From Nitrosarchaeum sp. (GTDB lineage Archaea > Thermoproteota > Nitrososphaeria > Nitrososphaerales > Nitrosopumilaceae), in assembly GCF_035968265.1 (NCBI RefSeq), contig NZ_JAVYIM010000006.1:1-64000 (forward strand): 64,000 nucleotides of DNA. Reading direction: 5' to 3'. Made by a program: the position numbers and the translations under genes. The notes beneath the pieces are model-generated. The model had not been told where the DNA came from, made no database searches, and saw only the letters and a program-made list of their open reading frames with translations. Below, one piece after another: positions 4,763 through 40,782 of the stretch; the first letter of the stretch is position 1, and each line of letters opens with the position of its first letter.

Positions 4763-5477
4763 GTTTTACCACCAAAATTGAAAAATATTTTGTAGTTAAT
4801 GTCCCATCATTTACTTCACCTAGTGTTAGTTTTCGAATAATTTCGTTTTCTGTTCCAAGATCTTGTCCAATTGCAAAGATAGAATTATCAGGAAAGCCAG
4901 ATTCTTTTAGCAAATCTATCACTTTATCAAAATATCTTCCATCTTTTAGAAAAACCATTGTTTCAGAATTTTTTGCAATTTCTTTAACTGTACTCAAATC
5001 ATAACATGATGGAATTATTGCAACTTTTTCTGAACCTTCTGCAATACTTATTCCTACTTTAGCTGCAAATGTAAACATAGAAACAATTCCAGGAATGACA
5101 CTAATTTTTATTTCTGGATGATTCAGCTCGATATCTTTATGCATGTAAATCCAAGTACTGTATAGATATGGATCACCAATAGTAAGATAAACAACATTTT
5201 TTCCTGTTAAAACTTTTTCTGCCATTATCTTTGCATTTTTTTTCCAAGTTGCTTCAAGCACATCTTTGTCTTTTGTCATTGGAAAGATCAATTTTACTAT
5301 CTCTTGGTTTTTTGATTTATCAATTAATGACGATACTATGGATAATGCTATGCTTGGTCTATCTTCACCAGAGGCAGGACACATTATAGTGTCAGCATTT
5401 TGAATTGCTTTGGCTGCCTTTACTGTAAGTAGTTCAGGATCTCCAGGACCCACTCCTATTCCAATTAATTCAGGCAT
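4755..5477 (-). CDS. cbiL: Cobalt-precorrin-2 C20-methyltransferase
   Basis: The 240-residue SAM-dependent methylase acts on C20 of (cobalt-)precorrin-2. It shows IGVGPGDPELLTVKAAKAI at the N-terminus, MCPASGEDRPSIAL as in CbiL/CobI enzymes, LTIGDPYLYSTW and VIPGIVSMFTFAAKVG. It sits between cbiT and cbiF in a minus-strand cobalamin operon: 35 bp after cbiT and overlapping cbiF by 8 bp. Confidence 0.93.
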   Translation of the reverse strand: MPELIGIGVGPGDPELLTVKAAKAIQNADTIMCPASGEDRPSIALSIVSSLIDKSKNQEIVKLIFPMTKDKDVLEATWKKNAKIMAEKVLTGKNVVYLTIGDPYLYSTWIYMHKDIELNHPEIKISVIPGIVSMFTFAAKVGISIAEGSEKVAIIPSCYDLSTVKEIAKNSETMVFLKDGRYFDKVIDLLKESGFPDNSIFAIGQDLGTENEIIRKLTLGEVNDGTLTTKYFSILVVKRV

Positions 5478-18332: not shown

Positions 18333-18422
18333 TGCTTATTTTGCCATATAAACAAGGAAATTTTTGGTTTGTAATAGAAATTCCACCGAATTTATCTTAT
18401 AAGTAATCTATTCTGAATAAAT

Positions 18423-20538: not shown

Positions 20539-20841
20539 ATGAAATATCTTTTTGATGAAAACTGCTCTCCTACAGATAAGTTTCTAGATGCACATCCGGG
20601 ATGCATGAATGTAAAGTATCGACTTGGACAGGGAGCAAAAGATGAAACCATTCTTCAACAGGCAGACAAGAATGAATTTGTGATAGTAACAAGAGATATC
20701 GAGTTTGCACTTGATGCGCTAATTGATGGGTTTTATGTGATATATCGCGATGTTGATAAACAAAAAACTTCTTTTCTTAAAACAACAGGATTTGATGATA
20801 GCATAGTTTCTGATTTTAACAAATTCGATATAAAATTATAA
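20539..20841 (+). CDS. DUF5615-type PIN-like protein
   Basis: The 100-residue protein has the compact PIN-like pattern of the DUF5615/Mut7-C group: FDENCSP at residues 5-11 with the first acidic residues, then KDETILQQADKNEFVIVTRDIEFA with the TRD motif (residues 52-54). Such proteins are often toxin-like RNases paired with small antitoxins, but no obvious antitoxin gene precedes it. A TATA-like TTAATAATTTATTAA stretch lies just upstream of the ATG. Acidic residues compatible with metal binding are present. Confidence 0.75.
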   Translation: MKYLFDENCSPTDKFLDAHPGCMNVKYRLGQGAKDETILQQADKNEFVIVTRDIEFALDALIDGFYVIYRDVDKQKTSFLKTTGFDDSIVSDFNKFDIKL

Positions 20842-20850
20842 AATTCACGC

Positions 20851-21831
20851 CTAATGCTTAAGATAATTACCTTTTCCAGGAATGACATTCCTAACTCCTC
20901 CAACAGGGTTCTCAACGTCTCCTTTTCTTCTAGGTATCAGGTGAATGTGGCAGTGAGGAACTGTCTGTCCTGCATCGCTTGAATCATTAATTCCAATATT
21001 GAATCCTGTTACCGTTGAATCTTTTTTCTTGATCTCTTCTTGCAGTTTGTGCAGCAGGTTCATGCATGCTTTGTGTTCCGATGTGCCAAGATCAAAAAAA
21101 GATTGCACATGCCTCTTTGGAACAATTAGGTGATGCAGTTCAGTTACAGGATACTTGTCCTTGACTGCAAATGCAAGTGTGTTTTCTATTTTCGATAATT
21201 TTTCTAGTTTGCACAAGGCGCAATTGCTGTCTCTGTTCTCATACATTCCTTTCCACAGTCTGAAGTCTGTGCTGTCTGTGTCTCTTTTCTGTGAATTGCA
21301 TGTATAGCATAAAGCCTGCATGTTCTCAATTACGTTTGGACCTCCCTTGTTTATCGGAACAATGTGATCAATGTCCAGAGCCTTTTCTTTTGCGTCTATC
21401 CCGCACAGCTCGCATTTGTATTTTGCATTGCTGAGAACCTTGTACCTGATGTTGCCTGAAATTATTCTGGAATCTCTTGCACGGTGTATCCAGATGTTTT
21501 TTCCAAACCTGTCTTCGTATTTTTTTATCTCTTCGTCACAAAGTCTGGTGATGTTTTCTTTCTGCGAGTCCGTAAAGTTTGAGATGTCCATGACAAAGTT
21601 ATCGCCTTTGTAATCTACGATCTTGTGTTTCCGCAAGACCTTGCCTGGCATTATCTTTGTGATCATGGTATAGTAGTCGATCTGGCTCTGGTCTTTTGCA
21701 AGAAATGCCTTGGCAATCTTTTCAGGTGTCGCCTTTCCGTTTGACTGGATCAGGGTCTTTATCATTACCGGCTGGTAGATGTGCTGCATCTTCATTTTTT
21801 TAATAAATTTCTCGAGTTCCGAATAGTTCAA
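20851..21831 (-). CDS. wHTH-HNH endonuclease-HIT domain fusion
   Basis: The 326-residue protein joins three parts. Residues 1-70 look like a winged-helix segment (MIKTLIQSNGKATPEKIAKA). About 130-185 is an HNH nuclease with CELCG, DIDHIVPINKGG and ALCYTCNSQK, including two zinc CxxC pairs and the catalytic His. About 205-326 is a HIT domain with CALC, ELHHLIVPKRH and the triad GQTVPHCHIHLIPR. HIT proteins hydrolyse nucleotides, and HNH domains cut nucleic acid. The gene is more GC-rich than core genes. It ends close to the convergent DUF5615 gene. Confidence 0.88.
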   Translation of the reverse strand: MNYSELEKFIKKMKMQHIYQPVMIKTLIQSNGKATPEKIAKAFLAKDQSQIDYYTMITKIMPGKVLRKHKIVDYKGDNFVMDISNFTDSQKENITRLCDEEIKKYEDRFGKNIWIHRARDSRIISGNIRYKVLSNAKYKCELCGIDAKEKALDIDHIVPINKGGPNVIENMQALCYTCNSQKRDTDSTDFRLWKGMYENRDSNCALCKLEKLSKIENTLAFAVKDKYPVTELHHLIVPKRHVQSFFDLGTSEHKACMNLLHKLQEEIKKKDSTVTGFNIGINDSSDAGQTVPHCHIHLIPRRKGDVENPVGGVRNVIPGKGNYLKH

Positions 21832-21935: not shown

Positions 21936-22877
21936 TTATAGGTTTTGTATTATTGGATTAAAGGTGCTTTCAAAAGCCTGCATGTTTTTGCTAAACCATT
22001 CCATTACATCTTTTCGATTCTCTTCAGAAAAATCATACTCTTTATCTATGTAATACTCAATCGATTTGGATTTGTTTCCGGGATTATCATACCAATCAAG
22101 TTCAGGAAATTTTGAATTTAGTTCTGATTGGTGTGTCTGCAGTTTCTCAAATGTTTTTTTGTTTTCATCTTTTGTTCCACCCACAATTCCTAATGATATT
22201 GTCGGATACTTTCCTTTCCAAAAATAGAATGTAAACTGTAATCCCGGCTTTGCTGAAGGAAAATTTATCCAGCTGTCATAAGGAGGAGTTCTATTTTTGA
22301 ATCCCGGTTTTACTGAATCAAAATACGGAATGAAGTGAGTCCAAAATTCATTGTATTTTTTGGCTTTGTCTGATTTCTCTCTTGAGATTCTAGCTACCTT
22401 TTCTTGTCTTGTCCATTGATCAGGACGAACAATGGGATTCACTTCTAAGGCGGGATTCGAGTCATCGATTTTGATTAGATTAATTTTTAGTGCAAAAAAT
22501 GACGGACTGTCTTCTTCTGATGCAATGCTGTTAAGCCAGTTTAGTGCTGCAATATGTTCTGGAAGGAAATCTTCAGCAATCCAGATTAAAATATCTGCTT
22601 CTAGTCCTGCTGCATATGTTAAGATTTTTCCTAGATGATCATGATCTGCGTTTCCGAATTGATTCTCAATTACTATCCTTCTTTCGTCAGAATCATGTGC
22701 CAAAATATCACAAGAGTAACGACCTACAGACACTTCTGTTTGTGCATCTAGAAAATTCAAATCCAGTTTTTCCCCTATGTGATGAAGATTTTCCTTCAAC
22801 CAAGGGGTAAAATTACGTGCTTCGTCTGGGAATTCGTCCCTTACTGATATTCTTGTAATTTTTCCAATGTTGGCCAA
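21936..22877 (-). CDS. PD-(D/E)XK nuclease-like protein with DUF4268-type C-terminus
   Basis: The 313-residue protein has an N-terminal nuclease-like fold (about 30-105): VSVGRYSCDILAHD, then RRIVIENQFGNADHDHLGKILTYAAGL. The core reads D...E-N-Q, the variant in which Gln replaces the usual Lys. The C-terminal half (about 175-313; FWTHFIPYFDSVKPGFKNRTPP, ISLGIVG) matches the DUF4268 group found beside restriction and defence genes. No methyltransferase is adjacent. A solitary defence or DNA-processing nuclease is likely. Confidence 0.75.
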   Translation of the reverse strand: MANIGKITRISVRDEFPDEARNFTPWLKENLHHIGEKLDLNFLDAQTEVSVGRYSCDILAHDSDERRIVIENQFGNADHDHLGKILTYAAGLEADILIWIAEDFLPEHIAALNWLNSIASEEDSPSFFALKINLIKIDDSNPALEVNPIVRPDQWTRQEKVARISREKSDKAKKYNEFWTHFIPYFDSVKPGFKNRTPPYDSWINFPSAKPGLQFTFYFWKGKYPTISLGIVGGTKDENKKTFEKLQTHQSELNSKFPELDWYDNPGNKSKSIEYYIDKEYDFSEENRKDVMEWFSKNMQAFESTFNPIIQNL

Positions 22878-26705: not shown

Positions 26706-26831
26706 CTACTCCGTCTGAGAGACCCGCATTACCTTCCAGTCATAAGACTTGTTTTTTACTGCCTTCGCGATTGCGTTATGAAGATCTTTCTGTGATAAGA
26801 TGTACAGTTGCTGAATGGAAAATGATTTCAT
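26706..26831 (-). CDS. Micro-ORF 9 of the small-gene operon
   Basis: This 41-residue basic protein begins MKSFSIQQLYILSQKDLHNA. Its ATG overlaps the TGA of the preceding gene (ATGA at 26828-26831), as elsewhere in this operon, which supports it being translated by coupling. No domain is recognised. It is the most distal gene of the nine. Confidence 0.55.
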   Translation of the reverse strand: MKSFSIQQLYILSQKDLHNAIAKAVKNKSYDWKVMRVSQTE

Positions 26832-26980
26832 GCGTTCTTGTTCTCTAGCAGAATGTATTCAAGAATCTGGATCTGTCCCCACTTTTCTGCCTCGGTTGTC
26901 AAGTCTTCCTTGAAATAGCCTACCATGTAGACTGATTTTATATCGTCCAGCAAAATTTTGATCTGCTCCTCACTCATCAT
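26828..26980 (-). CDS. Micro-ORF 8 of the small-gene operon
   Basis: The ATG at 26980 (or the adjacent one at 26977) gives a 49-50-residue protein with MSEEQIKILLDDIKSVYMVG and an acidic C-terminus. The open frame to 27073 is an overlap shadow of the zinc-ribbon gene. The start sits inside the end of the upstream gene (ATGATGAGTGA). A helical, acidic protein of unknown function. Confidence 0.6.
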   Translation of the reverse strand: MMSEEQIKILLDDIKSVYMVGYFKEDLTTEAEKWGQIQILEYILLENKNA

Positions 26981-27179
26981 CGTCTCTTTCACCCCATCTG
27001 TGATGGCAGTTATTGCATTGCCATTTAGGATCATTATTTGACACAAGACATCCTCCCAAAACAATTTCGCCATTGTCTAATTCTTTTTCAAGGCTAGCCA
27101 TGTCTGCAGGTAATCCCCACAATATCCATGCAACGTTTTTGCTATTGCATTGTGGACATGTTGGATGTTTTTCAGTCAT
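26970..27179 (-). CDS. Zinc-ribbon protein, micro-ORF 7
   Basis: The 69-residue protein has CPQC at residues 8-11 and CNNC near residue 60, flanking a conserved-looking core (NVAWILWGLPADMASLEKEL, then GEIVLGGC). The core reads like a widely distributed short zinc-ribbon family in which the metal site is built from both ends. The ATG lies within the end of the upstream gene (8-bp overlap, ATGACTGA). Nucleic-acid binding is plausible but unproven. Confidence 0.8.
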   Translation of the reverse strand: MTEKHPTCPQCNSKNVAWILWGLPADMASLEKELDNGEIVLGGCLVSNNDPKWQCNNCHHRWGERDDDE

Positions 27180-27660
27180 TGGCGTATTTTCCTATCCTTT
27201 TTAATTTCCAAGAAAGCATTTGGGACCATGATACTTCTTCAAAAAATAATTCTAACATGTTTTCTATTGTTTTGAATTCGGAATAGCAACACCAGACATA
27301 ACCATTCCAGTTTCCATCGGGTTTGATTAGTGTCTCTGCATACCACTTGTCTTGTTCTGTACGAGAAAATTGGACGTTTTCTTGCGTGTTATTGTTGGTA
27401 AATCCAATATAATTTGGAGAATACTTCCAGTCTAATTTTTGCATTTCGTCAATTGCTTTAAAGAAGTTAATTGGTTCGTTTTGGACAGTTTTGGTTCTGG
27501 TATGCATGTAGTACACTATGTCTTGAAATTTTACATCCGAATCGGTTTTTTGATCAACTGTTTCATCTGAGATATTTTTTTGGAGAACAGGTGGTTTTAA
27601 AACATCAAGCAATCTCAATTTTAAAACCTCCAGTATTCTCCAAGATTGTTTCCATTCCAT
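27172..27660 (-). CDS. Hypothetical protein, micro-operon gene 6
   Basis: The frame codes for up to 162 residues. The ATG at 27660 overlaps the preceding gene by 40 bp. A TTG start near 27612 would remove the overlap and the unpromising N-terminal residues. The core (FQDIVYYMHTRTKTV; FFKAIDEMQKLDWKYSP; NWNGYVWCCYSEF) is aromatic-rich and looks like a real folded domain. No family is recognised. It is the largest gene in the operon. Confidence 0.65.
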   Translation of the reverse strand: MEWKQSWRILEVLKLRLLDVLKPPVLQKNISDETVDQKTDSDVKFQDIVYYMHTRTKTVQNEPINFFKAIDEMQKLDWKYSPNYIGFTNNNTQENVQFSRTEQDKWYAETLIKPDGNWNGYVWCCYSEFKTIENMLELFFEEVSWSQMLSWKLKRIGKYAND

Positions 27661-27767
27661 GTAAACAGATCAATTAGTTGACCACAGATCCTGCAAGCCT
27701 GGTTTTCTAACCACAGATCATGCTTGCCAGTGTTCCTATGTGAAATATCACAGATTCTGCATCTCAT
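27621..27767 (-). CDS. Zinc-ribbon micro-protein, micro-operon gene 5
   Basis: This 48-residue protein has two identical CRIC knuckles (residues 3-6 and 25-28), an ideal four-cysteine zinc site, with a short Trp/Phe-rich tail (FTWNGNNLGEYWRF). Its ATG overlaps the stop of gene 4 as ATGA. The combination of zinc site and coupling makes it a confident gene despite its size. Confidence 0.75.
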   Translation of the reverse strand: MRCRICDISHRNTGKHDLWLENQACRICGQLIDLFTWNGNNLGEYWRF

Positions 27768-28135
27768 TTCGTTTCCTCAGGAGTTGTTTTCCAGATTGAT
27801 TGAGACTTGATCCACTTTGCAAGTTCTCGGAATCTAGGGAAATTGTTATAATTTCGTAACATGAGTTCATAGTTTCCACCATTCCATTTTACGCTCTTTG
27901 TATATTTTGGATATTTCACAAAGACTATTCTTTCAAAATATTTGATGTTTTTGATAGATTGTTCTGAACTTACATCAGGCGAACTCATCGAAGTTAGATC
28001 AACGATGATCCCATCGACCCATATTGATGAAGTGACGCTATATACATAGGAGACATGAAGAAAATTTTCTAGTTCCTCGTGAATTAGATCATGAATTATC
28101 ACTTGCTGTACTGGTTCTATTTTAAACTCAGTCAT
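27764..28135 (-). CDS. Hypothetical protein, micro-operon gene 4
   Basis: I place the start at the ATG at 28135, which overlaps the stop of gene 3 as ATGA. The frame extends to 28210 inside gene 3. The 123-residue product begins MTEFKIEPVQQVIIHDL and contains SVTSSIWVDGIIVDLTSM and IVFVKYPKYTKSVKW. It looks like a small alpha/beta protein with no motif I can name. Confidence 0.65.
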   Translation of the reverse strand: MTEFKIEPVQQVIIHDLIHEELENFLHVSYVYSVTSSIWVDGIIVDLTSMSSPDVSSEQSIKNIKYFERIVFVKYPKYTKSVKWNGGNYELMLRNYNNFPRFRELAKWIKSQSIWKTTPEETK

Positions 28136-28317
28136 TTTCTTTTCTCCTGTATTTTCAAATATTCTTGCAACGATTTTTTCAGGTATTTTCCAATGTTGTG
28201 ATTTTTCCAAGAAATATGAGATTTGTCTTTCTCTTCATTTTGTTTTTTAATTTTATAATACTCTTTTACATGAGCATCATGTTGTTTTTGTTTTGATTTC
28301 TTTTCATTTTCTGCCAT
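28132..28317 (-). CDS. Lys-rich micro-ORF, micro-operon gene 3
   Basis: The 61-residue protein is highly charged (KKSKQKQHDAHVKEYYKIKK), helical and strongly basic, so it may bind nucleic acid or simply be disordered. It starts 3 bp after the stop of gene 2 and overlaps gene 4 by ATGA. No family is recognised. Confidence 0.55.
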   Translation of the reverse strand: MAENEKKSKQKQHDAHVKEYYKIKKQNEEKDKSHISWKNHNIGKYLKKSLQEYLKIQEKRK

Positions 28318-28320
28318 TGA

Positions 28321-28518
28321 TCATATCACTCCTGGTATTTTCCCCAACAAGCTATCAATGGTTTCTGTTTTAGATTTCAATGTGATAGAAATCATCTTAC
28401 TTTCTTTTTGGTTGATTCCACCGCTTGATCTTACTACAGAGATTTCTGAACCAGCATCAAATTTTGATTCAGATTTCAGTTTAGATTTTTCTTTTGTATT
28501 TCTAAAGAAATTTCTCAT
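28321..28518 (-). CDS. Micro-operon gene 2
   Basis: The 65-residue protein begins MRNFFRNTKEKSKLKSES and ends with a beta-like segment (KMISITLKSKTETIDSLLG). A GGAGG sequence lies 11 bp upstream of the ATG, and its start overlaps the stop of gene 1 (TAATG). No family is recognised. Confidence 0.55.
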   Translation of the reverse strand: MRNFFRNTKEKSKLKSESKFDAGSEISVVRSSGGINQKESKMISITLKSKTETIDSLLGKIPGVI

Positions 28519-28643
28519 TAATTTTTACCTCCATAAATCATTGGTTTTTCGTCCGTACCATCGTCGAACTCACGAATAATTCTAGGATAGAAAAAAACCT
28601 TAGAATTTAATTCGTTATTTTGAATCATGTTTTCTTGTTTCAT
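28518..28643 (-). CDS. Micro-operon gene 1 (first gene)
   Basis: This 41-residue ORF (MKQENMIQNNELNSKVFFYP...) opens the micro-operon and ends in TAATG, sharing its last base with the start of gene 2. It lies 65 bp from the divergent CARF-regulator start. It is too short for family assignment and could be a leader peptide. Confidence 0.5.
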   Translation of the reverse strand: MKQENMIQNNELNSKVFFYPRIIREFDDGTDEKPMIYGGKN

Positions 28644-28666
28644 GTTTTAGTTACGCAATAGAAATT

Positions 28667-28707
28667 ATTATATAACATCAAATTAGTATGCATACTGAAC
28701 ATACTAA
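28667..28707. promoter_or_regulatory. TATA element and three-half-site operator candidate
   Basis: A TATA-like ATTATATAAC (28667-28676) precedes a repeat built from one half-site. TTAGTATG (28683-28690) abuts CATACT (28691-28696), forming a perfect 12-bp palindrome, and CATACTAA follows at 28700-28707. The site covers the expected transcription start of the CARF regulator, so autoregulation is plausible. Confidence 0.6.
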
Positions 28708-28708
28708 A

Positions 28709-29449
28709 ATGAGTAATTTATCAAAATTGCGCGTGCACATTGTCCCTTTAGGCTTTGAAATAGACAGAATTCTATTACCGGCAAAGCAAATGAAGGCAGA
28801 TAAAATTTGGCTTGTCAGACACAATGATCCTGGTCAGGACAAAGCAAAGATCTATTCTGATGCAATCCTAAAGGATTTGAAGAAAAACAAGATTCAAGTA
28901 GAATTTGCAGAGGCGGATAGAAACAATGTTTTTAATATATTAAAAATTGTTAAAGAAATTTTTGAACAGGAAAAAGAAAACGATATTTATGTTAATGTTT
29001 CATCAGGTTCAAAAATTCAAGCAATAGCATGCATGATGGCCTGCATGATTTTCAAAGAATGTAATGTAACGCCATATTATGCTGAACCTGAAAGCTATCC
29101 ATCAACTCAAGGCAGACAACAATCAGCAGGTCTGAAAAGTATTAGATCATTGCCAAAATACGAAATACAGAAGCCAAGGCAAGACTTGATTGATGCCTTG
29201 AAAATTATAAAATCTCATGACGGAAAGATTACAAAAAAAGAAATGGCGCTGTTAGCTGAAGAGGCGAAAATAATTACAATTGGAGCAAAAGATGAGAATC
29301 AGTCCCAAGCTAGATTTGCAAGTCTGGATAAAAATATTATTCAACCTCTGCAGGATCAGTGGAAGTTTATCCATGTTGAAAAAATTGGACGCAATAGATG
29401 GATAAAAATTACTCAGGAAGGAATAGATGCATCAGAATTCTTAATCTAG
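28709..29449 (+). CDS. CARF-type winged-helix regulator (HFX_2341/DUF6293-like)
   Basis: The protein has an N-terminal CARF-like Rossmann domain (VHIVPLGFEIDRILLPAKQM; DKIWLVRH; then the ligand-loop motif VNVSSGSKIQAIACMMA at about 96-112) and a C-terminal winged helix (about 165-246; IKSHDGKITKKEMALLAEEA). CARF domains bind cyclic oligoadenylates or related nucleotides. The frame opens at ATG 28688, inside the operator palindrome and upstream of the transcription start expected from the TATA box, so I use ATG 28709. There is no CRISPR-cas gene in the window. It is divergent from the micro-ORF operon, its likely target. Confidence 0.8.
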   Translation: MSNLSKLRVHIVPLGFEIDRILLPAKQMKADKIWLVRHNDPGQDKAKIYSDAILKDLKKNKIQVEFAEADRNNVFNILKIVKEIFEQEKENDIYVNVSSGSKIQAIACMMACMIFKECNVTPYYAEPESYPSTQGRQQSAGLKSIRSLPKYEIQKPRQDLIDALKIIKSHDGKITKKEMALLAEEAKIITIGAKDENQSQARFASLDKNIIQPLQDQWKFIHVEKIGRNRWIKITQEGIDASEFLI

Positions 29450-29473: not shown

Positions 29474-29584
29474 TTAAGTTTCTTCGACGGTCCAAGAAAG
29501 TGCATCTCTTCCACACATTTTACAAGAATGTCTTGTCTCATTTAACCAACTTTCGCCGCACTTGCACCTATAGCGCCAACCCAT
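29474..29584 (-). CDS. 36-residue zinc-ribbon micro-protein
   Basis: The complement encodes MGWRYRCKCGESWLNETRHS followed by CKMCGRDALSW, giving a CxC plus CxxC zinc site with an aromatic N-terminus. It begins 45 bp after the helicase-nuclease gene on the same strand and could be its last gene. Confidence 0.6.
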   Translation of the reverse strand: MGWRYRCKCGESWLNETRHSCKMCGRDALSWTVEET

Positions 29585-29629: not shown

Positions 29630-32600
29630 TTACTTTTCAGCTTCATCACAAATATCTGAATATTCGCACCATTTGCAAGTAAACATCTCAGGTTTTGCGT
29701 CAAACTCTTTGTTTTGGATAGATTTGACATGCTCTTCCAGTTTATTTTTAATCTCGTCAACTTTAGCTGGATCTACTTTATACTCAAACAACTGCTCGCC
29801 TTCAGGCTTTTCAACATAGAAAAATATTGCTTTGACTGGATACTTACCAAAGTCTGGATTTTCCTTTAAAGCGAGGCTATACAGATTCAATTGGGCACTG
29901 TTTTGGGCATCGACTTTCTTATTTTTTCCGCCTGTTTTGTAATCTACTATTACATATTCGCCGTCTGAAGTTTTTTCAATTCTGTCTATCACTCCGTTTA
30001 CAGGAAATCCCCCAATATGGATAGTAAATGGTAGCTCCAGTGCAACTATCTCATTTGGATTTGAGCTAGACCATTTTTGATATGCTTCTAATGCCGGCAA
30101 AAGTGATTTTTTGTCCTGTTGTTCTTTCTGAATTGGACTTGTTAGATACTGCTTTGGATCCCATAATGATTCTAGTTCGTCTAATAATTTTTTAGCATCA
30201 TCAGTATGTCCTTCTTTTTGTCTTTTTGCTGAATCTTCAACAATCTTGTGAAATGTGCTTCCTTTGTAAAGTGGGGCTGCCTCTTGATTCTCAGGTAATG
30301 CATTTAGTACATATTGATACCAAAATTGCTTTGGACATTTCTCATACGTCTCGAATTTTGAAAATGAAAGATTTTTCTTTGAAAATCCTAGTCTCTCTGG
30401 CTGAGTTCCAAGTAATCGTGATTCTAATTCTTCACTAGGTGATTGCTCGAGAAATTTGTCAAAAGAGAATCCATCTACAGTGTGCTTTTTTTGGAAAAAT
30501 CTAATCTTTGCTAAATCCAAAATTTTCTGAATTGCACTCTCATATTGCTCACTGTGTAAATTCTTGATTACCGAATTGATCTGCTCATTTTTGAGAATCT
30601 CGACTGCATCAAATGTAGTTGAAATCTCAGAGCTTGCATTTGCATCATATTTTATAAAATCTACATCGTTATTTTTTTCAGGCTTCAGTGCAACGAGAAA
30701 CTTTGATGCTTTGTTTGCCTTGCTTCTATCCTCGTATTGTGTAGGATACATCAAAAACAGGTTTTCTATGGTTCTAGTCATGCCTACATAAAGCACTCTT
30801 CTTTCTTCTCTCAAGAATTCTTCTTTTGGATCGGCTGAAGGAAATACGCCTTTTGAGAGTTCGCGTGGGACAAAAAACGGTTTTTCTGTATATTTTAGCG
30901 GAATTTTGTATGTTGCAACATCTATGATAAATACAGTTTTGTATTCTAGTCCCTTGCTTTTATGAATTGTAGATACCTGAACTGAATCAGAGTCAAGTGC
31001 ATCACGTTTTGTTTCAATGTCAAACTTGTCAAGCTCTTCTGCAAAATCTAAAAATTCTTTGATTCCAGCTTGAGAATTTATCTTTTCAAAATCATACGCG
31101 CTACTCAGAATATCATTTAGAATTGAACGCTCTATGAAATTTTCTATAGAGTCATCGTTTGCAATCTTTTTGTAAATGTCTGTCTTGTTTCTAATAATTT
31201 GATAGATAGTTTGCGATGGCGAGAGATTTTTTGCAATGTTGATAAATTCCTGAATCATTGAAAAAATTTCGGCAATCTCTTTTTTCTGAGTCAGATCCTT
31301 TACATCCAAATCACAGAGCACGTCAAATGTGTAATCCCCATCGGTTTTACTTCGGGCTCTGATTGTTGCTTCGTGATTAATTTTGGAAATGTTTTGCTCA
31401 GAAATTCCATACTCTTGTAAAATTCTGGTGATACTTGTCATTGATTTCATTGGATTTGCAATGATGCGAAGAAATGAAAACAACACCTTTGCATTGACCG
31501 AGTTTCGAATCTCTGATTTTCCAATGTATTTTACAGGTATTCCATCTGAAGCTAGAATTTGTGCGACATTTAGTCCATCTTTTTGTTTTCTGGACAAGAT
31601 TGCAAAATCACTAAACTTGTAGCCTGATTTTTTGATTAGCTCATGAATCTTATTTTTGATAAACTCAGCCTGGGCATATTCTGATGTGCATTCTATCACT
31701 TTTACCATCTGTTTGTCGTCTTTTGTAGGCACGATTTTCTTTGGTGCTCTGAATTTGTCTTGCTCTAACAGTTGATTTGAGAGATTGATTACGTGTTGCG
31801 GGTTTCTCCAGTTTTTTACTAATTGTACTTCGGTATAATCTGGAAATGATTTTTTAAAATCCTCAAAGATTTGTGTGTATGCTCCCTGGAATCTGTAAAT
31901 GTTTTGGTCTGCATCGCCTACTGCTGTAACGTTTCCATCTTTGGCTAGTTTTTTTACAACTGAAAACTGTGCAAAGTTGTTGTCTTGAAATTCATCGATT
32001 AGAATGTGCTTGTATTGTTGTTGAGCTAGATTTAGGGCATGAGGCTTGCTTTTGTTTCCAAGTAAATTGTTTGTCTCTACTATAAGATCATCAAAATCCA
32101 TTATGTCATTTTCTTTTTTGAATTTGACATATTCTCTGTACATCTTTACAAGATTGTCCAGCATGTGAATGTACTCTGCTTCCTCAACATCCTTCATTGT
32201 TCCAGGATCATCTAATTTTGATTTGACATATTTTTCCAATTCGTCTGGTGTGACCAGCTCATCAGTGAATACGCTAATTCCGTCAATCATTTTTTCAACT
32301 AAATCTGCAGCGTTGTTTCCAATCTCGATATGATCATCAAATCCAAACTTGTCAATGTTTTGAACACCCCAGACCAGAAACACTGGACGATCTAAAATTC
32401 CGCCTCGCATCCCCAATCCGGTTGAAGTTGTGTTATCCATCAACAAATCTCTACAAAAAGAATGATAGGTACTAATCCGCATCTCTGAGATGTCAATTTT
32501 TTCTTTAATGTCATCGTCATTTTCCAGTCTTTCTTTGAGATCTTGTGCAGCTTTTTCTGAAAATGTAAGACATAGAATCTCTGATGGCTTTAGACCTGAT

Positions 32601-32722
32601 TTCATCAAAAATTTAATTCTCTCTGTAATGACTCTGGTTTTGCCGCTTCCAGGACCTGCGGTTACTAGTAAAGGGGAGCCTGTATGTTCAATTGCTAATA
32701 GTTTTTCTTTATCGAATTTCAT
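29630..32722 (-). CDS. UvrD/Rep-family helicase fused to a Cas4/RecB-type Fe-S nuclease
   Basis: The 1030-residue protein has SF1A helicase motifs: Walker A AGPGSGKT (about 22-29), ILIDEFQDNN (Walker B), VGDADQNIYRFQGA (motif III), STIHKSKGLEYKTVFI and YVGMTRTIENL. The C-terminal PD-(D/E)XK nuclease contains GVIDRIE and VIVDYKTGG. Its iron-sulfur cysteines are one in YEKCPKQF and three in CKWCEYSDIC, as in AddB and Cas4. It probably unwinds and resects DNA ends. RecB-like proteins of this layout act in archaeal double-strand break processing and in defence. It is well preserved. Confidence 0.92.
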   Translation of the reverse strand: MKFDKEKLLAIEHTGSPLLVTAGPGSGKTRVITERIKFLMKSGLKPSEILCLTFSEKAAQDLKERLENDDDIKEKIDISEMRISTYHSFCRDLLMDNTTSTGLGMRGGILDRPVFLVWGVQNIDKFGFDDHIEIGNNAADLVEKMIDGISVFTDELVTPDELEKYVKSKLDDPGTMKDVEEAEYIHMLDNLVKMYREYVKFKKENDIMDFDDLIVETNNLLGNKSKPHALNLAQQQYKHILIDEFQDNNFAQFSVVKKLAKDGNVTAVGDADQNIYRFQGAYTQIFEDFKKSFPDYTEVQLVKNWRNPQHVINLSNQLLEQDKFRAPKKIVPTKDDKQMVKVIECTSEYAQAEFIKNKIHELIKKSGYKFSDFAILSRKQKDGLNVAQILASDGIPVKYIGKSEIRNSVNAKVLFSFLRIIANPMKSMTSITRILQEYGISEQNISKINHEATIRARSKTDGDYTFDVLCDLDVKDLTQKKEIAEIFSMIQEFINIAKNLSPSQTIYQIIRNKTDIYKKIANDDSIENFIERSILNDILSSAYDFEKINSQAGIKEFLDFAEELDKFDIETKRDALDSDSVQVSTIHKSKGLEYKTVFIIDVATYKIPLKYTEKPFFVPRELSKGVFPSADPKEEFLREERRVLYVGMTRTIENLFLMYPTQYEDRSKANKASKFLVALKPEKNNDVDFIKYDANASSEISTTFDAVEILKNEQINSVIKNLHSEQYESAIQKILDLAKIRFFQKKHTVDGFSFDKFLEQSPSEELESRLLGTQPERLGFSKKNLSFSKFETYEKCPKQFWYQYVLNALPENQEAAPLYKGSTFHKIVEDSAKRQKEGHTDDAKKLLDELESLWDPKQYLTSPIQKEQQDKKSLLPALEAYQKWSSSNPNEIVALELPFTIHIGGFPVNGVIDRIEKTSDGEYVIVDYKTGGKNKKVDAQNSAQLNLYSLALKENPDFGKYPVKAIFFYVEKPEGEQLFEYKVDPAKVDEIKNKLEEHVKSIQNKEFDAKPEMFTCKWCEYSDICDEAEK

Positions 32723-39574: not shown

Positions 39575-40705
39575 TCAGAGGTTTGGTACTTCAATTTTAT
39601 TTGTCCTCAAGTATTGTAATAAATCGTTGAACTTTTCTTCCAACTGAGTGTTCTTTGCAGACAGTATCTTGATGTTCTTCTCAACCGTCTTAAAATCAGA
39701 AATTGTTAGGTATGGCTCGACCTCAAGGTACATTTCTTTTTTCTTCTCGTCATTTAGCTGATAGTATGTGCTCATATAGAATTGGTGACCAATCAACGCT
39801 TCAGCAAAATCTCTGCCTGATACGTTGCCCACGGTAGTCCTGAAGAATTTTCTCAGTGCATGATAGTGGATTACCCTTATTCCGTTGGTGTTTGTCTTGT
39901 TCAGGTCAGGGATCTTTTCAAGATAGTATTTTAGCTGTCTCATCAGCAAGCCTTCCGCTATAAGGTGATCAGGCTGCTTTGGGTTTTCTTTTCTCTTGCG
40001 CCCGTTGAAGTTGTCTCTTCCAAAAATAATCACATCATTGAGATGAGAATTATCTTTTTTCTCGTCCCACTTTAGAAATCTTGAGAGATAGTCCTTGAGC
40101 GAGTCTGTTGCTTCTGCAGTGATGAAAGTTTCTCTTGCGTGTCTTGTCTTTGTAATCTGTGCACGCAATCTGATTGTTGTAGGTGTTGTTGTAAAATCAA
40201 TGTCAGATAATTTTAGTTGTACCAATTCTCCTATTCGCATTCCGCTTGATGACAGAACAAGCATTACAGTCTGAAGTCTTGGTGGTGCGTTTCTTAACAC
40301 TCTAAGAATTATTTCTTTTGTCAATGCAACTTCAGGTTCCTGAATATTTTTTGGAACTCTGATGATGTGCTTGCAGTCCTCTGTGTAAATTTTCAATCCC
40401 AAGAATCTGAGATAGCCTTTGATTGCTGCAAGTCTTGACGTGATTGTCTTTGGCTTGTAGTTGTTCTTGTCAAGAAAGACAACATAGTCTCTCATGACTT
40501 CATAGACGTCAAACTTTTCTTGTTTGATCTGTTCTGCAAATTCCAGTTCGTTAATTTTGTATCTTTGCAAGAGAAAGTCTCTGAATCCTGTATTGTTTTT
40601 GTTTGATATTGCAAGCCTGTAGGAACTGACCGTGCTGTAGCTGTGCGACATGATGAACACAGAGTCAAAGAATGCCTGCGCCTTTTGGTCTGGGAGTTCT
40701 TGCAT
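39575..40705 (-). CDS. Tyrosine recombinase (integrase)
   Basis: The 376-residue integrase has an N-terminal SAM-like core-binding domain and a C-terminal catalytic domain. The catalytic residues are R157 in SSGMRIGEL, a lysine in the KTRHAR region, HYHALRKFF (H-x2-R), LIGHQ and the nucleophile in STYYQL. A short C-terminal coiled coil (KTVEKNIKILSAKNTQLEEKF) is extra. Its start is 64 bp from the right copy of the 13-bp direct repeat. No tRNA gene is adjacent. Confidence 0.92.
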   Translation of the reverse strand: MQELPDQKAQAFFDSVFIMSHSYSTVSSYRLAISNKNNTGFRDFLLQRYKINELEFAEQIKQEKFDVYEVMRDYVVFLDKNNYKPKTITSRLAAIKGYLRFLGLKIYTEDCKHIIRVPKNIQEPEVALTKEIILRVLRNAPPRLQTVMLVLSSSGMRIGELVQLKLSDIDFTTTPTTIRLRAQITKTRHARETFITAEATDSLKDYLSRFLKWDEKKDNSHLNDVIIFGRDNFNGRKRKENPKQPDHLIAEGLLMRQLKYYLEKIPDLNKTNTNGIRVIHYHALRKFFRTTVGNVSGRDFAEALIGHQFYMSTYYQLNDEKKKEMYLEVEPYLTISDFKTVEKNIKILSAKNTQLEEKFNDLLQYLRTNKIEVPNL

Positions 40706-40769: not shown

Positions 40770-40782
40770 AGTGCTTTCTATG
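40770..40782. repeat. Candidate attachment site, right copy of 13-bp direct repeat
   Basis: This AGTGCTTTCTATG copy lies just upstream of the integrase start and includes the stop codon of the flippase-like gene, a typical position for an integration site at a gene 3' end. The left copy is at 18320-18332. Confidence 0.4.

Follow-up and report, generated by a model that had tools for sequence, protein, structure and literature searches.

The locus described here lies in a 64,000-nucleotide stretch of DNA (hereafter, the window) from Nitrosarchaeum sp., a member of the Nitrosopumilaceae (assembly GCF_035968265.1, contig NZ_JAVYIM010000006.1, positions 1 to 64,000), which is part of a 1.53-Mb genome in 8 contigs. 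It comprises nine small minus-strand genes, denoted g1 to g9 (26706-28643), and a divergent gene for a CARF-domain regulator, with a palindromic site, the CARF box, between them. An earlier note made from the sequence alone had claimed nine linked open reading frames (ORFs), two of them with four-cysteine zinc sites and most without a recognisable domain, next to a divergent CARF and winged-helix partner. This description holds: all nine ORFs are in place, each with an ATG and a stop codon; g5 and g7 carry four cysteines; none of the nine exceeds the Pfam cut-off; and the partner, on the plus strand, combines an HFX_2341_N CARF domain with a DUF6293_C winged helix.

Genes and promoter elements of the locus (positions in the window)
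28709-29449, plus strand (ORF opens at 28688): CARF and winged-helix regulator, DUF6293 / HFX_2341 branch, PADLOC CARF3 (Pfam, PADLOC)
28683-28707, no strand assigned: palindromic 25-bp CARF box, the sole match in this genome at no more than one mismatch to the 21-base pattern
28664-28677, no strand assigned: conserved TATA-like element, common to both divergent genes (sequence; predicted function)
28518-28643, minus strand: g1, micropeptide of 41 residues, core YPRIIREFDDGTDEKPMIY (conservation, codon pattern)
28321-28518, minus strand: g2, 65 residues, orphan (ORF)
28132-28317, minus strand: g3, 61 residues, orphan, charged (ORF)
27764-28135, minus strand: g4, 123 residues, paralogue of a protein common in the family (homologues in 7 loci)
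27621-27767, minus strand: g5, four-cysteine protein of 48 residues (homologues in 9 loci, dN/dS)
27172-27618, minus strand: g6, 148 residues from TTG 27618, or 162 from ATG 27660 (homologues in 16 loci; predicted start)
26970-27179, minus strand: g7, zinc ribbon of 69 residues, the commonest cargo protein (near-cut-off Pfam match, dN/dS)
26828-26980, minus strand: g8, 50 residues (homologues in 9 loci, dN/dS)
26706-26831, minus strand: g9, 41 residues, orphan (ORF)

From g1 to g9, the successive junctions are a 1-nucleotide overlap (TAATG), a 3-nucleotide gap and overlaps of 4, 4, 40, 8, 11 and 4 nucleotides, and a Shine-Dalgarno-like sequence precedes most of the ORFs. Translation of g6 probably starts at TTG 27618 instead of ATG 27660 because GGAGG lies just upstream of this codon, which is 2 nucleotides past the g5 stop; with this start, the 40-nucleotide overlap between g5 and g6 vanishes. 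The small ORF that comes nearest to a Pfam cut-off is g7, with a zinc ribbon match of 24.9 bits vs 27.1.

Conservation of the small ORFs, a check that the earlier note had proposed, came out favourably for six of the nine: g1 and g4 to g8 have homologues in comparable loci of other Nitrosopumilaceae. The median ratios of nonsynonymous to synonymous substitution rates (dN/dS) are 0.05 for g8, 0.13 for g5, 0.30 for g6, 0.34 for g7 and 0.11 for the CARF gene, values that are rough because many pairs have high dS. Conservation and, where measured, the codon pattern led us to reject chance ORFs as an explanation of g1 and g4 to g8, a rejection that does not extend to g2, g3 and g9.

The g1 micropeptide family

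The first gene of the operon, g1, belongs to a family of proteins of 25 to 44 residues with the core [FY]P[RK]IIREF[DE]..DE.P[ML].Y, in which seven positions (P, I, R, E, F, P, Y) are invariant. Matches at E <= 0.01, some few of them weak, were obtained in 57 of 250 Nitrosopumilaceae genomes; a phylum-wide sample yielded nothing convincing outside this family, and the named records with g1 come almost entirely from ammonia-oxidising archaea (Nitrosopumilus, Nitrosarchaeum, Nitrosotenuis and Cenarchaeum). Loci of the genus labelled g9 have a shorter, diverged form of the micropeptide at the same place, such as MQQKYKLDKTQVLFYPKVKSVFEES. Among 48 distinct DNA sequences of g1, the mean heterozygosity at codon positions 1, 2 and 3 is 0.089, 0.076 and 0.486, respectively, and one conserved arginine site uses six different codons. 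Because the variation sits mainly at third codon positions, g1 is, judging from this pattern, a translated peptide under strong purifying selection.

A conserved palindromic box at the CARF start

The intergenic DNA between g1 and the CARF gene is strongly conserved and includes, next to the TATA-like element, the 25-bp site (consensus ATAGTATGCATACTGTACATACTAT) that overlaps the first ATG of the CARF gene. When counted in its 21-base form with at most one mismatch, the box is listed 77 times, in 55 of 200 genomes, vs once for the reversed control; this genome has exactly one site, at 28684. It is found no more than 650 bp upstream of 51 of the 53 g1 genes, including copies away from CARF (38 of the 53 are head-to-head with a CARF gene). 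In 88 of 93 loci, the box stands at the start of the CARF gene, a position that is suggestive of a regulator binding its own promoter. Distant CARF proteins (30-37% identical; L130, L140 and L141) have a different repeat, GTTAATAAAGTTAA, at the same place, which would fit a regulator and a box that change together. The g1, F14-like and g7-like genes, along with a CARF box, were also observed in a contig labelled as bacterial (L287, JALRJN010000037.1; Porticoccus) that is probably an archaeal contig wrongly binned.

Exchangeable genes behind g1

The earlier note had treated the nine genes as one small-protein system. The operon is indeed real and is conserved across genera, but its composition is not fixed: g1 and the box stay constant, whereas the genes that follow differ between genomes. 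This cargo includes the zinc ribbon g7, a DUF7220 membrane protein, the small families F5, F6, F8, F14 and F19, and relatives of g4, g5, g6 and g8; the gene maps come from a simple codon-score gene caller, which may overlook short genes or misplace their starts. In several relatives, a PIN-domain protein (PF01850) is encoded between the box and CARF on one side and g1 on the other; no PIN domain was matched among the nine ORFs of the window. Relatives of g4 are present in 96 of 151 genomes, with two extra copies in this one. AlphaFold models of g6 and g4 are of fair quality (mean pLDDT of 80 and 88, respectively). An immunity protein, the best fold match of g6, was discarded as not usable (E 0.58).

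The regulator and its possible signal

The regulator is of a known kind. It matches the HFX_2341_N CARF domain (PF19810, 1e-39), the DUF6293_C winged helix (PF22665, 8e-21) and the PADLOC model PDLC01847 (CARF3, 1.6e-76), and, more weakly, Csa3_N (2e-8); a sequence search of the PDB with the CARF protein returned Csm6 alone, at E 0.6. The probable start codon is at 28709, since ATG 28688 falls within the conserved box and, in L103 and L104, the corresponding stretch cannot be aligned in frame. CARF homologues were found in 69 of the 151 family genomes, spread over 16 of the 22 genera; the gene is thus patchily distributed, and CARF gene remnants in relatives (L150, 2743-2916, with matches in G068 and G109) suggest frequent loss. 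In relatives, the CARF gene adjoins Rad50/Mre11-like or ribonuclease J genes. In the window, a 36-codon ORF with CxC...CxxC cysteines, possibly another zinc micro-protein, lies between the CARF gene and a helicase gene (29474-29584, minus strand).

The ligand-pocket residues, singled out by the earlier note as a point on which the regulator could fail, are kept: the motifs G-[FY]-E-x-D-R and N..[ST]GSK hardly vary across 88 homologues and resemble the motifs of Csa3 that bind cyclic tetra-adenylate (PMC8844856). Binding to its own promoter has been described for a CARF protein of Methanosarcina (PMC7465815).

The search for an enzyme that would make the ligand gave mostly negative results. Cas10 (PF22335) was over the cut-off in none of the 151 family genomes, with positive controls; the scanned ORFs of the window contain no cas gene, in agreement with the earlier note, and Cas10 was the only cas gene searched genome-wide beyond the window. 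Type III CRISPR output was rejected because no Cas10 exceeds the cut-off in the 151 genomes. The DAC cyclase (PF02457) was detected in one of the 151 genomes, which is not the present one. For CD-NTase (SMODS), this genome has a weak match in a 446-residue frame (22.4 bits vs the cut-off of 26.5); similar frames of about 450 residues occur in 99 genomes and are probably CCA-adding enzymes. For signalling by cyclic di-AMP and for the cyclic-oligonucleotide-based antiphage signalling system (CBASS), no convincing cyclase was detected in this genome.

Nuclease genes behind the same box

In 11 genomes, a nurA-herA operon has the box 143-161 bp ahead of its nurA gene, and the box also precedes an EVE-GmrSD gene and an HNH nuclease gene; the present genome has no match to this nurA. 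Overexpression of Csa3b in Sulfolobus raises nurA, rad50, mre11 and herA (PMC7480081), and the box before nurA-herA can be considered a notable parallel to the Sulfolobus Csa3 regulons. A second short conserved ORF (MKQVK..NSQIITL) was observed between the box and nurA in the promoters of L225, L229, L230, L238 and L103; CARF is missing from many of these genomes.

The g1 motif in viruses

The motif FPRIIREFPDEK(D)EDPM[IV]Y was found in three viral contigs, of which two resemble each other closely. It lies near WxxWLEK repeats in a protein of 400-510 residues that is encoded directly after the terminase gene (7950-9158 in L222 and 7287-8813 in L223; the third contig is L224). The terminase has its closest counterpart in Halogranum tailed virus 1, at 30% identity. 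The motif protein, for which no Pfam or phage-record match was found, is variable between contigs and probably disordered. Of the 17 related contigs in which the next gene was read, 3 carry the motif, and one with a 99% identical terminase is without it; the variable viral protein must thus have gained or lost a host-like motif. The sharing of the motif suggests mimicry or competition for a common partner, in a direction that we infer. Neither CARF nor g7 was confirmed in viral contigs by single-sequence queries, which reach close relatives only. In a related viral contig, L318, one exact CARF box is present at 4924-4946 amid GATACTNTTGATAC-like repeats, and may be a hijacked operator or a chance occurrence.

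The viral protein also bears on the possibility that g1 is a regulatory leader peptide, the translation of which, rather than its product, controls the downstream genes. A length of 25-44 residues and a position first behind the box or directly behind the PIN gene would suit a leader, as would the placement of the unrelated short ORF between the box and nurA; however, the amino acids of g1 are conserved while synonymous change is free, and the occurrence of the same motif inside a large viral protein fits a binding peptide, so that we regard a leader as very unlikely.

The operon in an integrated island

The proposal that the operon belongs to an island was borne out: the island is integrated and rich in defence genes.

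Features of the island (positions in the window)
18333-40782, no strand assigned: integrated island holding the operon, 22.4 kb (repeats, empty site in G025)
39575-40705, minus strand: tyrosine recombinase (Phage_integrase) at the right end of the island (domain match)

The 13-bp repeat AGTGCTTTCTATG is found at both ends (18320 and 40770), and the segments that end at 18356 and start at 40778 are adjacent in the relative G025, so that an integrase, flanking direct repeats and an empty site in a relative are all in place. Selected island genes were scanned and matched defence and recombination families; the contents include methyltransferases, restriction-like nucleases, Vsr, a helicase-nuclease that combines UvrD with PD-(D/E)XK, and PDC-S11. 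The UvrD helicase and PD-(D/E)XK (Cas4-like) protein, of 1030 residues, is encoded just behind the CARF gene (29630-32722). The gene at 21936-22877 is a strong full-length match to the PADLOC candidate defence family PDC-S11 (DUF4268), and the left part of the island carries a DUF5615 PIN-like gene and a gene for an HNH and HIT fusion protein (20539-20841 and 20851-21831, respectively).

This setting raises the possibility that a family of mobile elements has the operon as its accessory or early region, with CARF as the element repressor and the small proteins serving the element rather than the cell, in maintenance, host takeover or exclusion of rivals. Besides the location inside an island with an integrase and direct repeats, such an origin would account for a DUF7220 cargo protein that also matches the phage family phrog_4276, for the patchy presence of both CARF (69 of 151 genomes) and g1 (57 of 250), and for the CARF remnants, which are signs of gain and loss. 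Yet several CARF-g1 loci adjoin ordinary chromosomal genes (ribonuclease J, Rad50/Mre11-like), the CARF-g1 pair persists in the genus labelled g9 without recognised cargo, and the presence of CARF and g7 in viral contigs was not confirmed. We consider this origin possible, though on the less likely side.

A candidate CARF-controlled micropeptide cassette

The reading that we prefer, and to which we give about even weight, is that the locus is a micropeptide cassette under CARF control, which the Nitrosopumilaceae would carry as a mobile accessory module, probably for defence or DNA conflict. To what is read from the sequence (the cassette, the box, its conservation, the variability of the cargo, the pocket motifs, the island and the viral motif), this reading adds CARF-box binding, a ligand, a direction of control and roles of the small proteins, all of which we infer. 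The CARF and winged-helix protein would bind the palindromic box over its own start, repressing itself and controlling the divergent operon. Virus infection or DNA damage would lead to the production or release of a ligand that occupies the CARF pocket, alters the binding to the box and thereby switches the operon on. The products would be the micropeptide g1, followed by exchangeable tiny proteins such as zinc ribbons and membrane proteins, and g1 would probably bind a protein partner that some viruses also address via the same motif. A more specific version, which is speculative and fairly unlikely, holds that this is a so far undescribed, CRISPR-independent immune module of ammonia-oxidising archaea, in which CARF reads a nucleotide signal and deploys the micropeptide and swappable tiny effectors, with viruses copying the motif in a hypervariable protein beside the packaging motor to compete for the partner.

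Several results weigh against the cassette reading. The ORFs g2, g3 and g9 have no homologues in the collected loci and are unsupported as genes, and fold searches with the g4 and g6 models gave no significant match to a solved fold. The searches for Cas10, DAC and CD-NTase found no synthase of a CARF ligand here; nucleotide control, as put forward in the earlier note, thus retains the conserved pocket residues in its favour, but no known ligand maker in this genome, and can be called possible. Finally, among the 11 genomes in which the box precedes nurA, 7 have no DUF6293 CARF over the cut-off (several of these 7 are about 99% complete), and six related nurA genes that lack the box are in CARF genomes. 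The rule that the box stands at nurA where CARF is present therefore failed.

Because box-nurA and CARF presence do not coincide, another protein may bind the box. In this alternative, which we hold to be unlikely, the box belongs to a more widespread regulator whose targets are CARF, the g1 operon and nurA-herA, with CARF itself being an effector or a second sensor. The seven box-nurA genomes without CARF would be explained directly; nevertheless, the box is at the CARF start in nearly all loci, the distant CARF branches have their own repeat at the same place, and one of the box-nurA genomes, G048, keeps a 57-codon CARF remnant. Given this remnant, possibly a recent loss, loss of the regulator is one explanation of a box-nurA without CARF, to which a second box-binding protein may be the alternative.

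Among known systems, the cassette regulator is most readily compared with Csa3 (Csa3a and Csa3b of Sulfolobus, Csa3 of Saccharolobus, and MM_0565 of Methanosarcina), with which it shares the CARF and winged-helix architecture, the pocket motifs, a palindromic site at its own promoter and a possible link to nurA-herA. It differs in belonging to the DUF6293 / CARF3 branch, in its micropeptide and small-ORF cargo, and in that no CRISPR-cas genes were found; the cas linkage of the Csa3 of CRISPR-Cas type I-A is missing among the scanned window ORFs. The ancillary modules of type III CRISPR that respond to cyclic oligoadenylate likewise have a CARF sensor with kept pocket residues, but here no Cas10 exceeds the cut-off in the 151 genomes, and the proposed output takes the form of small-gene transcription rather than of a nuclease fused to CARF. 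Similarly to the island, the thaumarchaeal integrated mobile elements of Krupovic et al. 2019 (PMC6563490) have a tyrosine recombinase, direct repeats, an empty site and mixed cargo with defence genes; in a term search of that article, CARF came up in the reference list only, and a CARF-micropeptide cassette was not seen in it. The PIN protein (PF01850) between CARF and g1 in several relatives resembles VapC-like toxins; unlike VapBC-type toxin-antitoxin systems, the window operon has no PIN gene and no recognised antitoxin. The pairing of CARF with a micropeptide, the box and the exchangeable cargo were not found in the searchable literature, a scope outside which most subscription journals fall.

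CARF proteins have mostly been studied as readers of type III CRISPR signals. Here, CARF is present in 69 of 151 genomes, in a lineage where no Cas10 exceeds the cut-off, so that either another signal or a CARF role of its own would have to be considered in these archaea. The locus provides testable handles, namely one operator, one micropeptide family and kept pocket residues, and perhaps also a regulatory connection with DNA end resection that would parallel that of Sulfolobus Csa3. The viral motif, in turn, is a rare pointer to the role of an archaeal protein of 25-44 residues.

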